24,783 nt of DNA, from positions 1-24,783 of the IMG/VR virus record IMGVR_UViG_3300048672_001314. One strand, 5' to 3'. The number at the start of each line of letters is the position of its first letter. Position 1 is the first letter of the stretch. The notes beneath the pieces are model-generated. The model was not told the origin of the DNA. It did no database searches and saw only the letters and a list, made by a program, of their open reading frames with translations. A program made the position numbers and the translations under genes. Source of the stretch: a virus. Shown piece by piece: positions 3 to 24,027 of this stretch.

Positions 3-305
3 ACTACACTGCTCGCAATCGTTGATATGCTGAAATCTGAGATTGAGGCAAAGAAAGCTGAAGCGCGAGCTCGTGAGAAAGAGGCTGAAGCCCAACAAGC
101 AAAATACGCCGCCGAAATCGCAGCAAACAAAGTTAAGGCAGAGCAAGACATCCTAGACATGGAAGCTTGGAACAAGAAGAACAACGCAGAGCGTGGCGAA
201 GCACGTAAGTTAGCGATGCTAGCAAAGTATCGGTACGAAAAAAATCAAGCTGAAAAAGAAGATCGCGATCTCGATAGTTACCAGATGGTTGGGAGATTCA
301 AGTGA
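3..305 (+). CDS. Charged helical protein, C-terminal part (5' end outside window)
   Basis: I do not recognise this family. The frame is open to the left edge, so the first in-frame ATG (27) need not be the start and the gene probably begins outside the window. The visible 100 residues are almost entirely charged and Ala/Glu/Lys/Gln-rich, with runs such as KKAEARAREKEAEAQ, which predicts a long alpha-helix or coiled coil. No signal peptide, membrane segment or catalytic motif is visible. Its TGA overlaps the GTG start of the next gene (GTGA), so the two are probably translationally coupled and transcribed together. A structural or scaffold-like role is possible from composition alone, but that is a guess. 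Confidence 0.65.
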   Translation, partial: TTLLAIVDMLKSEIEAKKAEARAREKEAEAQQAKYAAEIAANKVKAEQDILDMEAWNKKNNAERGEARKLAMLAKYRYEKNQAEKEDRDLDSYQMVGRFK

Positions 306-823
306 GCGGCTTTTACCAATATTTCAAAGAATCGTTTAAGTTTGATCGTCCACTCGCCCCCGATGCGCTGATCAACAAGGGCGATCAGGTTATGGTGCAA
401 GCCAAACATGATAATGGGCCAATCAAGATCATCACCACAGCCAAGGATAATATCACTGCGAACCAACTGATCGACCAACTCCGCACTCAGGACCCAAGTA
501 TCGTTACGGCGGTCGTGTATGTAATTGATACCAATCAAGTCGGTGATCCAGATATTAACATAACCAAAGATGAGCGACCAATGCAACCAAAAAAGAAAAA
601 ATACCGACCAATGAAGAGACGCGTTAATGAGCAGGATGAGCAGGTTCAACAGAACCCACAGGATGTTGCTAAACAACAACGTCGCACTAACATTGATCAG
701 CAAATAGCACAACAGCAGACTCAGATGGCTACGATTCGTCAGAATGCTGATCGGATCCAGCAACAACTACAAGCGAAGCAGAAGATCATTGATAATCTGC
801 AGCGACAAAAGGCTGCGATCTAA
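302..823 (+). CDS. Unrecognised protein with basic patch and C-terminal coiled coil
   Basis: A 173-residue protein starting at GTG, inside a GTGA overlap with the preceding gene, which supports this start. Residues 1-95 look like a small folded alpha/beta domain. A strongly basic patch follows around residues 96-108 (PKKKKYRPMKRR), then a Gln-rich segment (about 112-173) with heptad-like spacing that predicts a coiled coil. No catalytic motif or membrane segment is seen. The basic patch plus coiled coil would suit a nucleic-acid-associated or assembly protein, but that is inference only. The stop lies two bases before the exonuclease start at 826. The N-terminus has a loose Phe/Tyr-x-Glu pattern, but it does not match a gp21 cleavage site. 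Confidence 0.7.
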   Translation: MSGFYQYFKESFKFDRPLAPDALINKGDQVMVQAKHDNGPIKIITTAKDNITANQLIDQLRTQDPSIVTAVVYVIDTNQVGDPDINITKDERPMQPKKKKYRPMKRRVNEQDEQVQQNPQDVAKQQRRTNIDQQIAQQQTQMATIRQNADRIQQQLQAKQKIIDNLQRQKAAI

Positions 824-6161: not shown

Positions 6162-6533
6162 ATGTCAACTCGCATCATATCCAAAGCTGAGGGATTCGAC
6201 CTCATTTACAAGGCGTTTCAAGACATCAATTTCAAGTCATTTGATTTTAATACAGTCAAACAGAGCTTGATTGATTATGTCAAATTGTATTTTCCAGAAA
6301 CGTTCAACGACTTCATCGAATCATCCGAATTTATTGCTCACCTGGAGATATTTGCGTATGTCGCTGAACTGTTTATCTACCGGGTCGACGTAAATGCCCA
6401 CGAGAATTTCCTCCCCGTAGCACAGCGGAAGGATTCCGTTCTGCGACTAGCGAAATTCATCTCCTATACGGAACGTAGCTGGTCGTGGAATGCTGAAGGT
6501 CAATTCAATCAAAACATCCGAAGCGTTGTATGA
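6162..6533 (+). pseudogene. 6: Baseplate wedge protein gp6-like, N-terminal part (frameshifted)
   Basis: This frame encodes the N-terminus of a gp6-type wedge protein. It includes the conserved core FDFNTVKQSLIDYVKLYFPE (27-46), FNDFIESSEFIAHLEIFAYV (48-67), YRVDVNAHENFLPVAQRKDS (73-92) and LRLAKFISY (94-102). After about 6470 the frame departs from the family pattern (ERSWSWN) and stops at 6531-6533. The expected continuation (RNVAGRGMLKVNSIKTSE) is in the +1 frame from 6469. The joined protein would have about 1072 residues. gp6 is essential for baseplate assembly in T4, so either the assembly carries an indel here, or the virus recodes, or it is defective. The start follows a late-promoter core; no clear Shine-Dalgarno sequence is seen. 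Confidence 0.85.
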
Positions 6534-9378
6534 TGCGCGTGGTCAGTCACTACAGAATGTACAGATTCTGTGGAACGATCAACAAAATCCATATTGGAAA
6601 GAGCAGTTCATTCAGGTATTCAACCGGATCTCCAGCAGCAACTATGGATCTGTTGGATATAATGAGCGAGTTCAATACCAAGATATTCTATTTGAGCTAT
6701 ATCAACTGAACAACCAACCAACCGAGACTGGTGTGTTCCCGTATACAGCAATAGCTGCTGGTGCAACACTTCCAATGGAATGTGTGCCAGCTCAACTATC
6801 TGCAGCTGGTCCATCTGAGCGTCGACCTACTGGCAGTGCTAGTTCGTTTAGTATGTTGTACGGATCCGATGGTTTGGGAGATCAATCCGATCTAACTGGG
6901 TTCTTCCTTCTTACTAAGCAGGGCAACCTAACCAAGACTCGGGTGCAATTGGATGGTCGTACCCCAAACCAAGTGATTCCGGTTAATATCACAAACATCA
7001 ACCAAACTGATGTGTGGGTCAATAACGTTGATCCAACCACGGGATCAATCATTGATGATGGCACCAATCCAGATGGATTGTCTGGAGAGTGGGTACAAGT
7101 TAACCTGGAGAGTGCGGAAAACGTAATCTTCAACACAATTACCAATCCAAACAAATATGAGGTAGAAACTAAGGATAGCGACAAAATCAACATCATTTTT
7201 GGTGATGGTGAGTTTGCGACGATTCCAAGCGGCACGTTTGATATTTGGACCCGCGCTTCTGCGAATAGCGACACGATCATTCCAAAATCGAGTATCCAGG
7301 GAGTGCCGTTTAGCATGCAGTACCGCGATGAGCGGAATCAACTGAACACAGTCACAATAACGGCTAGTGTCACTGGTCCAATTCAGAATAGTAACGTATC
7401 TGAGGATATTGAGCGGATTCGTCGCGTCGCACCAAGTGTCTATTATACCCAAGACCGAATGGTCAATGGCCGCGATTACAATTCATATTTGCTACGTGAT
7501 CCCACAATCCTGAAACTGAAAGCGGTGAACCGAGCATTCGCTGGTCAATCAAAATACAGAGCATTTGATGAATTTGGTGGTGATCCATCAGAGACATATG
7601 ATAATGTCCGCATCTTTGGTACCGATCTCGCTGTATATTACAAGGATAACTCCGTTTTCCAATACCTAGATGCTAACCTAGACCCATCTATTGTTGTCAA
7701 TGATGCAATTGAACCGATTTTGTTAACTAGTGCTTTTTATATGTACCGATCAACTCGCGATTTTGGAGAGCTGTCCCGAATAACATTCAACAATTCTGTT
7801 GGGTATATTGCCGATCAAAATAACCCAAATCTAACTGTTCCTGATTTTAATGATCCAGTCAACAACAAATTGGAACGAGCATCAATTTTATATGCGATGG
7901 GCAGCACAGTCACCGTTGGGTCGACCACGTATACAAACCCAAATCCAACATTCCCCGTTGACATCTATTATGATAATGATCTCAATCGGTGGCGAACCAC
8001 AACTAGTAGTGTATTTGACCCATTCAATCAAGTCGTGTCCCCCCAGGTACTGATCAGTATTGATAAACAAGTAATTGGTAATCAAAAGTGGGTGGTACAG
8101 AACGTTGGCACCAAGCTATATGCTGAAAGCAATACGACCAATTTTTGGAATAACACAGTTGATCCAATCATTTCTTTCGAGACTGGCAATCCAGTTAGTG
8201 ATACAATCGAAGTGCTAGATCTCAACAGAGACGCATCGAGAACCCAGCTGTTAACGGCTCCATTGGTTTTACCTGTAATTGGGCAGCCGTCGGTTGATAT
8301 CTCATATCCAGATGTTGGTCTACCAAATACCCAACAATTGCTGATTGGATTCCCAACATCCGATCCAACTGATACTAAGTTGCTCCCAATCATCGATCCG
8401 GTGTATACATTTAATGGTCCATTCACCAATTTACAGCAGATTACATTGCCTTTCAGCTACTTGATTGGTCGTGGGGATATCTTGATTACGACCAACGTTG
8501 GGTCATCAGTAGTGTCGGAGGGTACTCCAACCATCACATCTGGACTGACTGATCAAATCACAGTAGTCGATCCTGTGGGATTGACCTCGATCTCCGTTAA
8601 GAAGACGGACTTCGTCTATTTCCAGCGTGCATCAATCAACGATTTGTGGTCAATCATTGACAATCCAACACAAGCTGATATCAGACTATTTGATTCTGAT
8701 GTTGCCATTGGCAACTCTATTGGTACGTTGTATAAACGGGAACATGGAAGATCCAACCTAAACTTCTTGTGGAGGCACTATACGAATCAATATCACCTGA
8801 TTGATCCAGCTGCAACTAATATCGTCGATGCTTTGGTTCTAACCAAATCCCATTACGTTAATACTCGGCGCTGGTTAGCTGGTGAGCTATTCAATCGACC
8901 ATTAGCACCAACCCCCTTTGAATTGCGGAGTGCGTATCAAGTCCTTCTCAATGATGCAATGATCTCGGATACGGTGGTGGTCAAGCCTGGACAGATTCGG
9001 ATTTTGTTTGGTAGTCGAGCTATTTCTGAACTACGCGGAACGTTCCGATTGGTGAAATCTCCTGGATCGACCCTAACTGATAATGAGATTAAGATTCGAG
9101 TAATTCAGGTAATTGATCAATATTTCGATGTCAATCGGTGGGATTTTGGGCAGACATTTTATTACACCGAACTGGCAGCAGCGATTCACAATGATCTTGG
9201 AACGAATATTGAAACAGTGGTTCTTATTCCGTTGCAACTAGGCAATGTCACTGATCAACTATTGACACTGGTCACACCAAGAGAAGATGAAATCTTCGTA
9301 CCTGATGTGACTGTTAGTGATATCGAAATCGTCACCTCACTGGTTAGAACCAATATCAAGCAAGTTGGTCTGACATAA
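6490..9378 (+). pseudogene. 6: Baseplate wedge protein gp6-like, main part (frameshifted from 6162 frame)
   Basis: The remaining 962 residues of the gp6-like wedge protein. The ATG at 6490 is internal to the conserved region (GMLKVNSIKTSE), so it is not a natural start. Family landmarks: INIIFGDGEFATIPSG (about 233-248), RRVAPSVYYTQDRMVNGRDY (about 310-329), then KAVNRAFAGQSKYRAFDEFG, and the C-terminal block FYYTELAAAIHNDLG with VVLIP (about 890-915). Six copies of gp6 form the inner iris-like ring of the T4 baseplate together with gp25 and gp53. The joined protein is far longer than T4 gp6 (660 residues); the extra length is a beta-rich section in roughly the second half before the conserved C-terminus. 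A structured GC-rich spacer follows the stop. Confidence 0.88.
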
Positions 9379-21119: not shown

Positions 21120-22727
21120 TCAATGTAGACCGGCCTTCCACCACTTGGGGATGTAGCGACTCGTCATATTGAACAAGTATCCCCACGATTCATCCAAGAT
21201 ATACGTAACCCCCCAATCATCTGCACTACGAACGACTCGACCACATCCCTGTATGATATCAGTAATCGCTAGCAACTGGTACCACTTACTGGACATCTCC
21301 ATCCGACGCTTGATCCAAGCATCCTGCAAGTTTTTGTATGGAACCTTAACGATCACAGCAAATCGTGACAGATCATCTTTTAGGTCCAACCCCTCAGTGA
21401 TCGATGGTGAGATCAAAATCGCCGGAGACGTGCACTCCATAAACGACTGAATCACTTTGTTTCGATCTACCTTCATTCCAGGCGTTGGGTTGTGGTGGAA
21501 GATTTGGTGTGTCTTCGATTTGATGTTAGCCACTAGCCAGTCTGAGATCTGGAAGTTACCAGCGTGGATGATACCAGAATCTGATTTATGTTCAGACAGT
21601 AGATCATCAATTGTGTTCAGTAGGGATGCTCGTCCGCTCTTATTTTCTGGTTCATTCCATTTGAAATTCATCTTCATCTGTGGTAGATAAAACACAGGTC
21701 GGTTCTCAACAGGAAACTCAGAATCAACAGATAGGAACGCGGTTTCGCTGGGATCAATCCCCAGATTCTCACACATCAATTGGTGGTCAAGAATCGTTGC
21801 TGACATGAAAACAAACTTTTCAGCCTTTGGTTCGCAGATTGTTTGGAACTGCTTGTTAGCTTTCAGTGGTTTAAACATGATCGACTGATTGTCTCGTGTT
21901 AGAACATACTGTGTACTAAAATACGCCCAATCAGCAGATAGCTTCAGCAATCGGTTGATCTCGTTCAAGTGATCTGAGTAGCTAGCGAGCTCTCGCAGAA
22001 CGATTTTATCCGCCTGAGACAAGTTACTACCACGAGTAGCAATCTCACTCTCAATATCTTCGAGTTCGTTGATATAGCGCTGAATACCCGGCTTATAATG
22101 CGATGCAATCCAGTCGATGATCGTACGTGGTTCATTACCAACGGGAAGCAACACTTTTGCCTTATCGCACCGACGTTTTGAGATCGATGGGCTACCAAAC
22201 TCAATCAGAAATCGCTCTAGGTTATGGCATTCATCAAACACCATTACGTTGCGTTTGGTGAACTGTGGAACATAAGAGAACAGCGTTAGAGCCAATGCGT
22301 AGTTCAATACCAGGTTGTTACGTGTAGCTTGGGCTGTGGCAAATGCTTGTTGGTGAGGACAAGTACCACAATCCTTGCAGCTCGGCTCTTCAATCAAACT
22401 GCCAATATCACATGTTGTGTTCTTTGAGTCACAAGGATAATTGGATTTGCCATACAATGAAATCACATGCTCTCGTGCAGTCTGCTCATATTGCTCTTGT
22501 AGGATTCGTTGGGGAGTTAGTACATAGCTGCCATATCCACCACCTGGACGATTCGCAAGAATCTTCGCAATTGATAGACCAACATAAGATTTGCCCGTAC
22601 CGACTGGTAGCTCAAGAAAGAAGTACTTCTTGTCTTGGTTGGCAAGGAACCACTCGAGTGCTTGTACTTGTTGTTTTCGTGGTAGGATGTTGTTGCTAAT
22701 CCAGTGATCCGTTTTTGAGAATGACAT
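21120..22727 (-). CDS. XPD/DinG-like superfamily 2 helicase with cysteine cluster
   Basis: A 535-residue SF2 DNA helicase of the XPD/Rad3/DinG type, which unwinds DNA 5' to 3' using ATP. Motif I is LPVGTGKS (40-47, Lys46), motif II DECH (165-168), and motif VI QGCGRVVR (493-500) followed by YILDESW; a SAT-like motif (FMSATILD) and ITEGLDL also fit the family. Between motifs I and II lie five cysteines (99, 106, 117, 120, 123), the position where XPD and DinG bind a 4Fe-4S cluster. It is shorter than E. coli DinG (716 residues). A role in recombination-dependent replication or removal of DNA/RNA obstacles is likely. Its start lies next to the divergent nucleotidyltransferase promoter; no late core or clear RBS faces it, so early or middle expression is more likely. 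Confidence 0.88.
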   Translation of the reverse strand: MSFSKTDHWISNNILPRKQQVQALEWFLANQDKKYFFLELPVGTGKSYVGLSIAKILANRPGGGYGSYVLTPQRILQEQYEQTAREHVISLYGKSNYPCDSKNTTCDIGSLIEEPSCKDCGTCPHQQAFATAQATRNNLVLNYALALTLFSYVPQFTKRNVMVFDECHNLERFLIEFGSPSISKRRCDKAKVLLPVGNEPRTIIDWIASHYKPGIQRYINELEDIESEIATRGSNLSQADKIVLRELASYSDHLNEINRLLKLSADWAYFSTQYVLTRDNQSIMFKPLKANKQFQTICEPKAEKFVFMSATILDHQLMCENLGIDPSETAFLSVDSEFPVENRPVFYLPQMKMNFKWNEPENKSGRASLLNTIDDLLSEHKSDSGIIHAGNFQISDWLVANIKSKTHQIFHHNPTPGMKVDRNKVIQSFMECTSPAILISPSITEGLDLKDDLSRFAVIVKVPYKNLQDAWIKRRMEMSSKWYQLLAITDIIQGCGRVVRSADDWGVTYILDESWGYLFNMTSRYIPKWWKAGLH

Positions 22728-22730
22728 GTG

Positions 22731-22738
22731 TATAAATA
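22731..22738 (+). promoter_or_regulatory. T4 late promoter, perfect TATAAATA
   Basis: TATAAATA matches the T4 late (gp55-dependent) consensus exactly and lies 22 bases before the ATG at 22761. An AAGGA ribosome binding site stands between them. The best of the six cores in the window. Confidence 0.75.
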
Positions 22739-22760
22739 TGTTAAAAGAAAAAGGACTTGC

Positions 22761-23486
22761 ATGGCTTCGTTTCTACGTTACCTTAGCGAGAATGACACTC
22801 AATTATCAATCAGATACCACGACCAACTCAACAAGGTGATATGGGATCAGCAAGATAAACTCAAACCACAGATCCGCGAACAACTACTCGCTGTTGCTGA
22901 TGAGTTTGTACAATTTGTTGATGCTGAGTTTGAGGTAATTGATATCATTCTAACTGGGTCTTTGGCCAACTACAATTGGACAGATCACTCAGACTTGGAC
23001 GTTCATATCATCGTTGATCTAACATCTGAAGATGTTGATAACCCAATCATTGATATCCAGAACGCATTTAAAACAAAAAAGTACCTGTGGGCAGAGTACC
23101 ACTCGGTCACAGTCAATGGGTTCCCAGTGGAACCGTATATCCAGTTAGCGGATGAAGAGATTGAAGCTACTGCAATCTATAGCTTGGTACTGGATCGGTG
23201 GATTCGTAAACCAAAACGCGAAGATGTTCGCATTGATGGTTTCAGTATTCGTAAGAAAGCTGATGAACTGATTGATACGATCATCACTATTATAGATCGT
23301 GATGTTGGTGTGCATGCTGCTGAAGCAATTGAAAAAAAGATCTATCAAATTCGTCGAGCTGGCCTAGACAAACACGGAGAGATGTCTACTGAGAACCTGG
23401 TATTCAAAGAAGTTCGCAACTCAGGTGCAATCAATGAATTGAGAGAGTACATCAGATCAAAAGTTGATCAGGATTTATCCAGTTAA
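22761..23486 (+). CDS. Nucleotidyltransferase with possible capsid-targeting N-terminus
   Basis: A 241-residue pol-beta-superfamily nucleotidyltransferase. I choose the ATG at 22761, with AAGGA just upstream, over 22728, which lies upstream of the promoter core. The active-site signature is LTGSLANYNWTDHSDLDVHI: Gly66-Ser67, then Asp78 and Asp80 as metal ligands; Glu124 in PVEPY is a candidate third acid. C-terminal helices (165-235) are charged. Similar proteins occur in many T4-like phages with unknown substrate. The first ten residues, MASFLRYLSE, resemble the T4 internal-protein capsid-targeting peptide (MKTYQEFIAE), ending in Leu-x-Glu as the gp21 protease requires. A perfect late promoter fits loading into the prohead. 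The gene ends at a two-way terminator. Confidence 0.82.
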   Translation: MASFLRYLSENDTQLSIRYHDQLNKVIWDQQDKLKPQIREQLLAVADEFVQFVDAEFEVIDIILTGSLANYNWTDHSDLDVHIIVDLTSEDVDNPIIDIQNAFKTKKYLWAEYHSVTVNGFPVEPYIQLADEEIEATAIYSLVLDRWIRKPKREDVRIDGFSIRKKADELIDTIITIIDRDVGVHAAEAIEKKIYQIRRAGLDKHGEMSTENLVFKEVRNSGAINELREYIRSKVDQDLSS

Positions 23487-23515
23487 AAAGAGTGCCGAAG
23501 TCGGCACTCTTTTTT
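23485..23515. terminator. Bidirectional intrinsic terminator
   Basis: AAAAAGAGTGCCGA pairs with TCGGCACTCTTTTT (14 bp, minimal AG loop) and has A-runs and T-runs on both sides. It overlaps the stop codons of both converging genes, the nucleotidyltransferase (plus) and RuvC (minus), so it ends transcripts in both directions. Confidence 0.9.
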
Positions 23516-23993
23516 ACTGCTCGCTACACTTTGCGATAAAATAGGCATCACACAAATCAGTCAACCCACGAGTTTTTACGTATCCGGCTTGCTTGAATCG
23601 ATCAAGAATATTGGTCGGTAGTGCCTCCAACATCTGCTCCTTCTTGCTCTTACCGGATCCGGTAGCAAGTTTCTTGACCGATAGAGGTGTGTGGATATCG
23701 ATTGCATGTCCCATCTGGTACGTGATCTTGTTGATCAACACAAATTGCAGCCCAGCTAGGTCTCGAGTGGCGTTACCTATTTGTTGAAACGCTAGTCCCT
23801 CCATTGCAATCTTATCTGGAGCCTCATTGTTGATAATTTCAGCTACCCTCTCAGCAATAAAATTAGCGCGGAAATGTATATCCTTGTCTTTCATGTCTTT
23901 TGTTGATATCGTGGTGAAGCTGGTCATTGCTCCATCTACCAATACAACAATACCACAACTAGTGAAGCTCTGATCGATTCCCAAAATTTTCAT
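23514..23993 (-). CDS. RuvC-like Holliday junction resolvase
   Basis: A 159-residue RuvC-family endonuclease. I use the ATG at 23993 because MKILGIDQSF is the normal family start; TTG 24008 and GTG 24005 are in frame but weaker. Acidic metal ligands are visible in the expected places: Asp7 (GIDQS), Glu65 (AMEGLAF) and Asp146/Asp149 (TDLCDAYFIAK). VKKLATGSGKSKKEQM (106-121) matches the DNA-binding region. It would cut four-way DNA junctions during recombination or before packaging; T4 uses the unrelated endonuclease VII, while many T4-like marine phages carry RuvC. It lies 48 bases after gp46, with a 9-bp hairpin between them, and ends on a shared terminator. Confidence 0.9.
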   Translation of the reverse strand: MKILGIDQSFTSCGIVVLVDGAMTSFTTISTKDMKDKDIHFRANFIAERVAEIINNEAPDKIAMEGLAFQQIGNATRDLAGLQFVLINKITYQMGHAIDIHTPLSVKKLATGSGKSKKEQMLEALPTNILDRFKQAGYVKTRGLTDLCDAYFIAKCSEQ

Positions 23994-23998
23994 CAAAT

Positions 23999-24027
23999 GT
24001 AACACCAAGTATAATCAATGGTGTTAC
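23999..24027. repeat. 9-bp inverted repeat just upstream of the RuvC start
   Basis: GTAACACCA (23999-24007) and TGGTGTTAC (24019-24027) pair perfectly around an 11-base loop. On the minus strand the hairpin ends five bases before the ATG of RuvC, in the gap after gp46, covering the place where a ribosome would bind. It might be a translational operator or a protein-binding dyad. No T-run follows. Confidence 0.55.

Follow-up and report, generated by a model that had tools for sequence, protein, structure and literature searches.

The 24,783-nt stretch of viral DNA analysed here (the window, numbered from its first letter), which makes up the whole of IMG/VR record IMGVR_UViG_3300048672_001314, raises the question of whether an enzyme made late in a phage infection works in the producing cell or is carried in the virion to the next host. 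The gene concerned is an open reading frame (ORF) at positions 22761-23486 on the + strand, encoding a nucleotidyltransferase (NTase) of 241 residues with the N-terminus MASFLRYLSENDTQLS, the first ten residues of which, MASFLRYLSE, resemble the capsid-targeting sequence (CTS) of T4 internal head proteins. A preliminary description had placed the feature at 22731-23486; the ORF with this peptide is indeed there, while position 22731 is the start of the late promoter box rather than of the gene. The DNA comes from a T4-related jumbo phage of the XacN1/RAS14 type, of which the window covers a fragment: its gp6 is 46% identical to that of Xanthomonas phage XacN1 and 45-46% identical to those of Stenotrophomonas phages CM1/RAS14, and the helicase identity is 41%. 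No near-identical DNA was found among phage records. We consider it likely that the late, CTS-tagged NTase is enclosed in the head, cut by a gp21-type protease, injected, and active in the new host, so that the next cell would probably receive a ready-made enzyme from the virus. Several independent lines of evidence converge to give good support to packaging of the NTase in virions; the binding to the core, the cleavage, the ejection and the target are what we infer, with T4 as the precedent for cleavage and injection.

In T4 internal protein III (IPIII), residues 4 and 7 of the N-terminal tag control targeting and residues 8 and 10 control processing, the cut falling after (L/I)-x-E (PMC9026906). 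The CTS-like peptide of the window protein (residues 1-10, 22761-22790, + strand; predicted cut between Glu10 and Asn11), identified by pattern search, has F4, Y7, L8 and E10 at exactly these mapped positions. It thus shares with the ipII and ipIII products aromatic residues 4 and 7, hydrophobic residue 8 and Glu10, in agreement with the spacing and aromatic pattern pointed out in the preliminary description. The T4 peptide cited there for comparison, MKTYQEFIAE, had been misattributed to internal protein I: it belongs to ipII and ipIII, and the strict pattern finds no ipI gene. The strict DNA pattern was run on T4 as a positive control and matched only ipII, ipIII and gene 61.1, with 0 control hits. 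Gene 61.1 (NC_000866.4:18966-19130) codes for a hypothetical protein of 54 residues starting with a perfect CTS, MKTFKEFIKE, and its product is a candidate for an overlooked internal protein. Loose peptide patterns were dropped, since in XacN1 and RAS14 their control hits were roughly as numerous as the real ones.

The peptide recurs in the window's own phage lineage. A scan with the window helicase returned 29 relatives, and the NTase was present in six loci (four non-redundant). The starts of these NTases, MLTFKQYLLE (L207), MAVSFKQYLINE (L198), MKLTFKQYIISE (L202) and MKQSLTQFLIE (L223), are all tag-like; together with the window, five of the five non-redundant lineage NTases begin with a CTS-like peptide that includes an (L/I)-x-E site, and in all five an ATAAATA-type box lies at -22 to -39. 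The L223 gene is located about 4 kb from the helicase gene, whereas in the other lineage loci the NTase gene is adjacent to and divergent from it. L207 (the same contig as L050) has the helicase-NTase-RuvC-SbcC gene order of the window, with identities to the window of 37% for the NTase and 44% for the helicase. A prohead protease of the Peptidase_S77 family (E 1.4e-25) is encoded on the 26-kb contig of this locus (G004), and further members were found on the L202 contig (G001) and in XacN1 and RAS14, while the L198 and L223 contigs gave no Peptidase_S77 match; the gp21-type protease looked for after the preliminary description is thus available in part of the lineage. In XacN1, the gp21-type protease, gp55, portal and capsid genes all occur in the same block. 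The helicase-adjacent gene in the XacN1 and RAS14 stretches examined encodes a different protein with a nine-residue tag (MRFVQYLIE and MSFVQFLIE, respectively), preceded in RAS14 by a late promoter box, and neither phage is among the phage records with an NTase homologue.

A wider set of homologues was assembled from phage records and alignment-based scans of viral contigs (a single-sequence scan of the contigs yielded no relatives); it comprised 171 ORFs, 125 of them non-redundant, 124 with a usable start. The family is nearly exclusive to phages, with 14 loci in 84,980 genomes and at least 589 IMG/VR loci per scan of environmental phages. The strict CTS is present in 24 of the 124 homologues, against a mean of 0.13 and a maximum of 3 in 2000 shuffles of the N-termini; the resemblance of the N-terminal peptide is beyond chance. 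The T4-type (gp55-type) late promoter sequence TATAAATA is found at -15 to -50 of 18 of the 24 CTS-bearing homologues and of 8 of the 100 others (Fisher 6e-11). In the window this box (22731-22738, + strand) is an exact match and the sole copy, 30 nt 5' of the ATG. The 'perfect T4 late promoter' reported previously is therefore real as a sequence, but one copy against about 1.1 expected by chance on both strands is not significant alone, and what gives the box its meaning is where it lies and that CTS-bearing homologues have it at the same place.

In a maximum-likelihood tree of the protein cores, at least seven switches of the CTS label fall on well-supported branches; when independent pairs are compared, the late promoter shifts with the CTS 4.8 times and against it 0.1 times. 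The conservation of the first ten residues holds throughout the lineage but not among many more distant homologues, which indicates that the peptide is an add-on and not a feature of the family. In many homologues the core begins directly at Met, separable from the peptide. Judging from the sequences, the CTS is a module that has been gained or lost repeatedly.

The association with virions was approached through the cyanophage S-CREM2, in which all 219 protein starts were compared with the published virion proteome (PMC10665884 Table 3). Four of the five S-CREM2 proteins with a strict CTS are non-structural virion proteins detected by mass spectrometry (Fisher p=0.0016), namely gp6 (S-adenosylmethionine (SAM) hydrolase), gp14 (kinase), gp136 and gp154 (cytidylyltransferase); the undetected fifth has 66 residues. 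Six unique peptides in the same proteome represent gp156 (126012-126725; PMC10665884 Table 3), the coordinates of which are those of the S-CREM2 NTase homologue found in this analysis (WNL51075.1, 33.5% identity). Like other cyanophage homologues it is annotated as hypothetical, and the published list does not recognise it as an NTase. Unlike the window protein, gp156 has the non-canonical start MKKLISE, and its gene overlaps that of the upstream gp155, which is also virion-detected. A literature search found no virion mass spectrometry for Cr30 or Maribacter phages. The capsid targeting proposed in the preliminary description is supported by the conservation in the lineage, the association with late promoters, the S-CREM2 virion proteins bearing the same motif, and the detection of gp156.

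The window protein matches PF01909 (NTP_transf_2) above the cut-off (E 2.1e-5). It also matches phrog_36119, a group of unknown function (E 3.9e-47), and this match begins at residue 11, right behind the proposed cleavage point. In an AlphaFold2 model built with 91 homologues (mean pLDDT, the model's confidence score, 91.9), an NTase domain (residues ~28-150) is followed by a helical bundle (~154-241), and residues 1-10 form a lone helix of low confidence (pLDDT 56) outside the confident fold, as expected of a detachable tag. The predicted mature NTase, comprising the Pol-beta-type domain and the C-terminal bundle, corresponds to 22791-23483 (+ strand). By profile and model, the protein is identified as a nucleotidyltransferase of the Pol-beta superfamily. 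Its active site, G66-S67...D78-L-D80 (22956-23000, + strand) with the third acid E124 (23130-23132), is intact, as stated in the preliminary description, and G66, D78, D80, H82 and E124 are invariant across the 91 aligned homologues.

The nearest solved folds are all remote (CdnE 6wt9, AAD(9) 6xz0 among the spectinomycin/aminoglycoside adenylyltransferases, MNT 8xeo and 2rff; E 1e-4 or weaker, Z <=7). MNT-type antitoxins are minimal, protein-AMPylating NTases that act on a HEPN partner from an adjacent gene. The resemblance to MNT consists of a weak profile match and fold matches, in a neighbourhood of helicase and RuvC-like resolvase genes; NCBIfam gave no match for the window protein and PADLOC only weak NTase-domain matches. 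The NTase core with GS...DxD and a third acid is shared with MNT antitoxins, ANT/AadA aminoglycoside adenylyltransferases and CD-NTases, whereas the window family differs from these in being nearly confined to phages and in having its own C-terminal bundle with the motif GE-x-S-x-E-N-L-x-F-K-x-(V/L)-R. Since the fold search cannot tell MNT-, ANT- and CD-NTase-like functions apart, no specific substrate is claimed; the most likely activity is the transfer of a nucleotidyl group to some host or defence component.

The NTase gene is a single transcription unit. The late promoter box is followed by a Shine-Dalgarno sequence, AAGGA (22751-22755, + strand), and the stop codon directly by an intrinsic terminator (23489-23515, + strand) with the hairpin AGAGTGCCGA-AG-TCGGCACTCT (23489-23510) and a T-run. 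It is flanked by the helicase gene (21120-22727, - strand) and the RuvC-like gene (23514-24008, - strand). In the proposed mechanism, the T4-related jumbo phage would express the gene as a late unit, and during head assembly the CTS, through Phe4 and Tyr7, would bind the prohead core, whereby copies of the NTase would become enclosed. The gp21-type prohead protease would then cut after Leu8-Ser9-Glu10 to release the mature enzyme starting at Asn11, which would be packed alongside the DNA and enter the next host with it. In the new host, the NTase would most likely move a nucleoside monophosphate onto a host protein, RNA or small molecule, a modification that may serve as an early take-over or counter-defence step.

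Several observations weigh against this reading. The 24.8-kb fragment contains no gp21, gp23 or core genes, so it is from relatives that we infer the protease. About 97 of the 124 homologues carry no canonical CTS either on themselves or on an abutting ORF. The strict CTS has 0 occurrences in XacN1, and XacN1 and RAS14 show the nine-residue variant only. The independent-pairs test relies on few pairs (median p 0.06), which makes the tree result a support and not a proof. The start of gp156 is only tag-like and degenerate, and its detection thus says more for an association of the family with virions than for the CTS; in addition, the S-CREM2 authors warn of possible carry-over in caesium chloride preparations (PMC10665884).

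Against this background, the alternative that retains most weight, although we regard it as unlikely, is a late intracellular NTase working in the producing cell, the peptide being a localisation or stability feature or the packaging incidental. It agrees with the many homologues that have neither peptide nor late promoter and are presumably cytoplasmic, and with the location of cyanophage members among replication genes, such as those for DNA polymerase and ribonucleotide reductase (RNR). What it leaves unexplained is the recurrent aromatic-x-x-aromatic-(L/I)-x-E pattern that travels with late promoters, and the detection of a homologue in virions. Less probable still is a protein packaged by its CTS that acts in the head or during assembly, for example in a core or scaffold role, and is not an injected enzyme. 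The T4 CTS does bind the prohead core, and for some core proteins degradation is the only fate (PMC9026906); however, the catalytic residues are invariant in this family, the CTS-bearing form is in some cases a fusion with another enzyme, as with the lysozyme domain in L167, and the T4 internal proteins and Alt are ejected (PMC9026906). A chance likeness of the first ten residues to a CTS, to which the one late box expected in the window anyway and the control matches of the loose patterns might point, is very improbable in view of the excess over shuffled N-termini and the presence of a version of the peptide in every lineage member.

Packaging and injection of the NTase would thus follow known examples. 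CTS-tagged internal head proteins and Alt-like injected enzymes form a known kind of system, which the window protein would join. With T4 IPII and IPIII it shares the ten-residue N-terminal tag, the (L/I)-x-E cleavage consensus, the late signal and, in its relatives, the prohead protease. The T4 internal proteins are, however, small, basic and non-enzymatic (IPI, for instance, inhibits a restriction enzyme), while the proposed cargo, 231 residues long, is a conserved enzyme whose active site is intact. In this respect it recalls the T4 ADP-ribosyltransferase Alt, which is packaged, proteolytically trimmed and injected, and modifies host proteins (PMC9026906), as is proposed here for the NTase; Alt differs in its unrelated catalytic fold, its seven-residue N-terminal propeptide and its additional C-terminal processing. 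Polyvalent proteins are phage-delivered conflict enzymes, and their Pol-beta NTase domains have been predicted to nucleotidylate proteins (PMC5512222, Iyer et al. 2017); they are large and multidomain, in contrast to the window protein with its single NTase domain and helical bundle, which falls outside that class. No description of a CTS-tagged nucleotidyltransferase was found in the open-access papers searched.

The tag is also present on other proteins. Tandem arrays of unrelated ORFs with near-identical CTSs (MKSFLQYITE, MKSFLHYLQE, MLSFRQYLEE, MKHFIQYLTE) were observed in L135 (4704-10720 and 16254-17417), L167 (2301-8209), L137 (1715-11617), L132 and L040, with five or six tagged ORFs in a row in L135 and L167, and include a tagged protein of 2120 residues without Pfam match. 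Such an array looks like a cassette of capsid cargo. In L167 (6674-8209) one protein combines a CTS-tagged NTase with a phage lysozyme domain (PF00959, E 4e-7), and L025 and L137 (8597-10948) encode a CTS-tagged fusion of 783 residues in which an internal KPFIRFLSEED precedes the NTase domain; the tag-like (L)-x-E site within it could allow the prohead protease to free the NTase. In the 735-kb phage LR756501.1 the strict CTS pattern has 18 sites, against 2 control hits (some run through stops). One of the sites belongs to its NTase gene, in which MLKYNSFIKE is followed by ~300 extra residues. In Synechococcus phage DSL-LC02 (L004:3810-3983), a small ORF, MKTFQDFLEE...GSGGSGDGDGGDGE, overlaps the start of an untagged NTase by 4 nt, and in the S-CREM2 overlapping pairs gp13/gp12, gp15/gp14 and gp155/gp156 (a small ORF with Cas9, kinase or NTase) both members are virion-detected. 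These pairs may possibly represent a tag acting in trans or a frameshift fusion. A tag on the abutting upstream ORF was rejected as a rule for untagged homologues, being convincing for only two loci, L004 and L181.

The window contains a second CTS-like start, the GTG-initiated MSGFYQYFKES (F4, Y7, F8, E10) of an ORF at 302-823 (+ strand) that may encode a further internal head protein. This ORF overlaps the upstream stop by 4 nt and has a Gln/Lys/Arg-rich tail; its Phe8 deviates from L/I-x-E, and tblastn found no phage homologues. The exonuclease gene (826-1520) is split into two halves of phrog_298, and gp6 (6162-9378) into two overlapping ORFs that are one in XacN1; both look frameshifted, and the assembly therefore probably holds indel errors.

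If the proposed delivery is correct, the virion would bring in a nucleotide-transferring enzyme ahead of phage gene expression, by a route known from T4 chiefly for Alt and the small internal proteins. The first ten residues together with the late promoter would turn a family of unknown function into a testable class of injected enzymes, and would provide a sequence criterion for other capsid-delivered effectors, which in S-CREM2 recovers the SAM hydrolase, the kinase and the cytidylyltransferase. The tandem tagged cargo genes are a more surprising lead than the NTase itself. Chances appear about even that the NTase belongs to the cargo of a general, modular system of capsid delivery, in which T4-related phages append a near-identical CTS to many unrelated proteins, at times in tandem cassettes, on long proteins or fusions with an internal CTS-like cleavage site, or on a small ORF co-translated ahead of an untagged enzyme, as in DSL-LC02; if so, the set of effectors that a phage injects would be predictable from its genome by a short stretch at the N-terminus.
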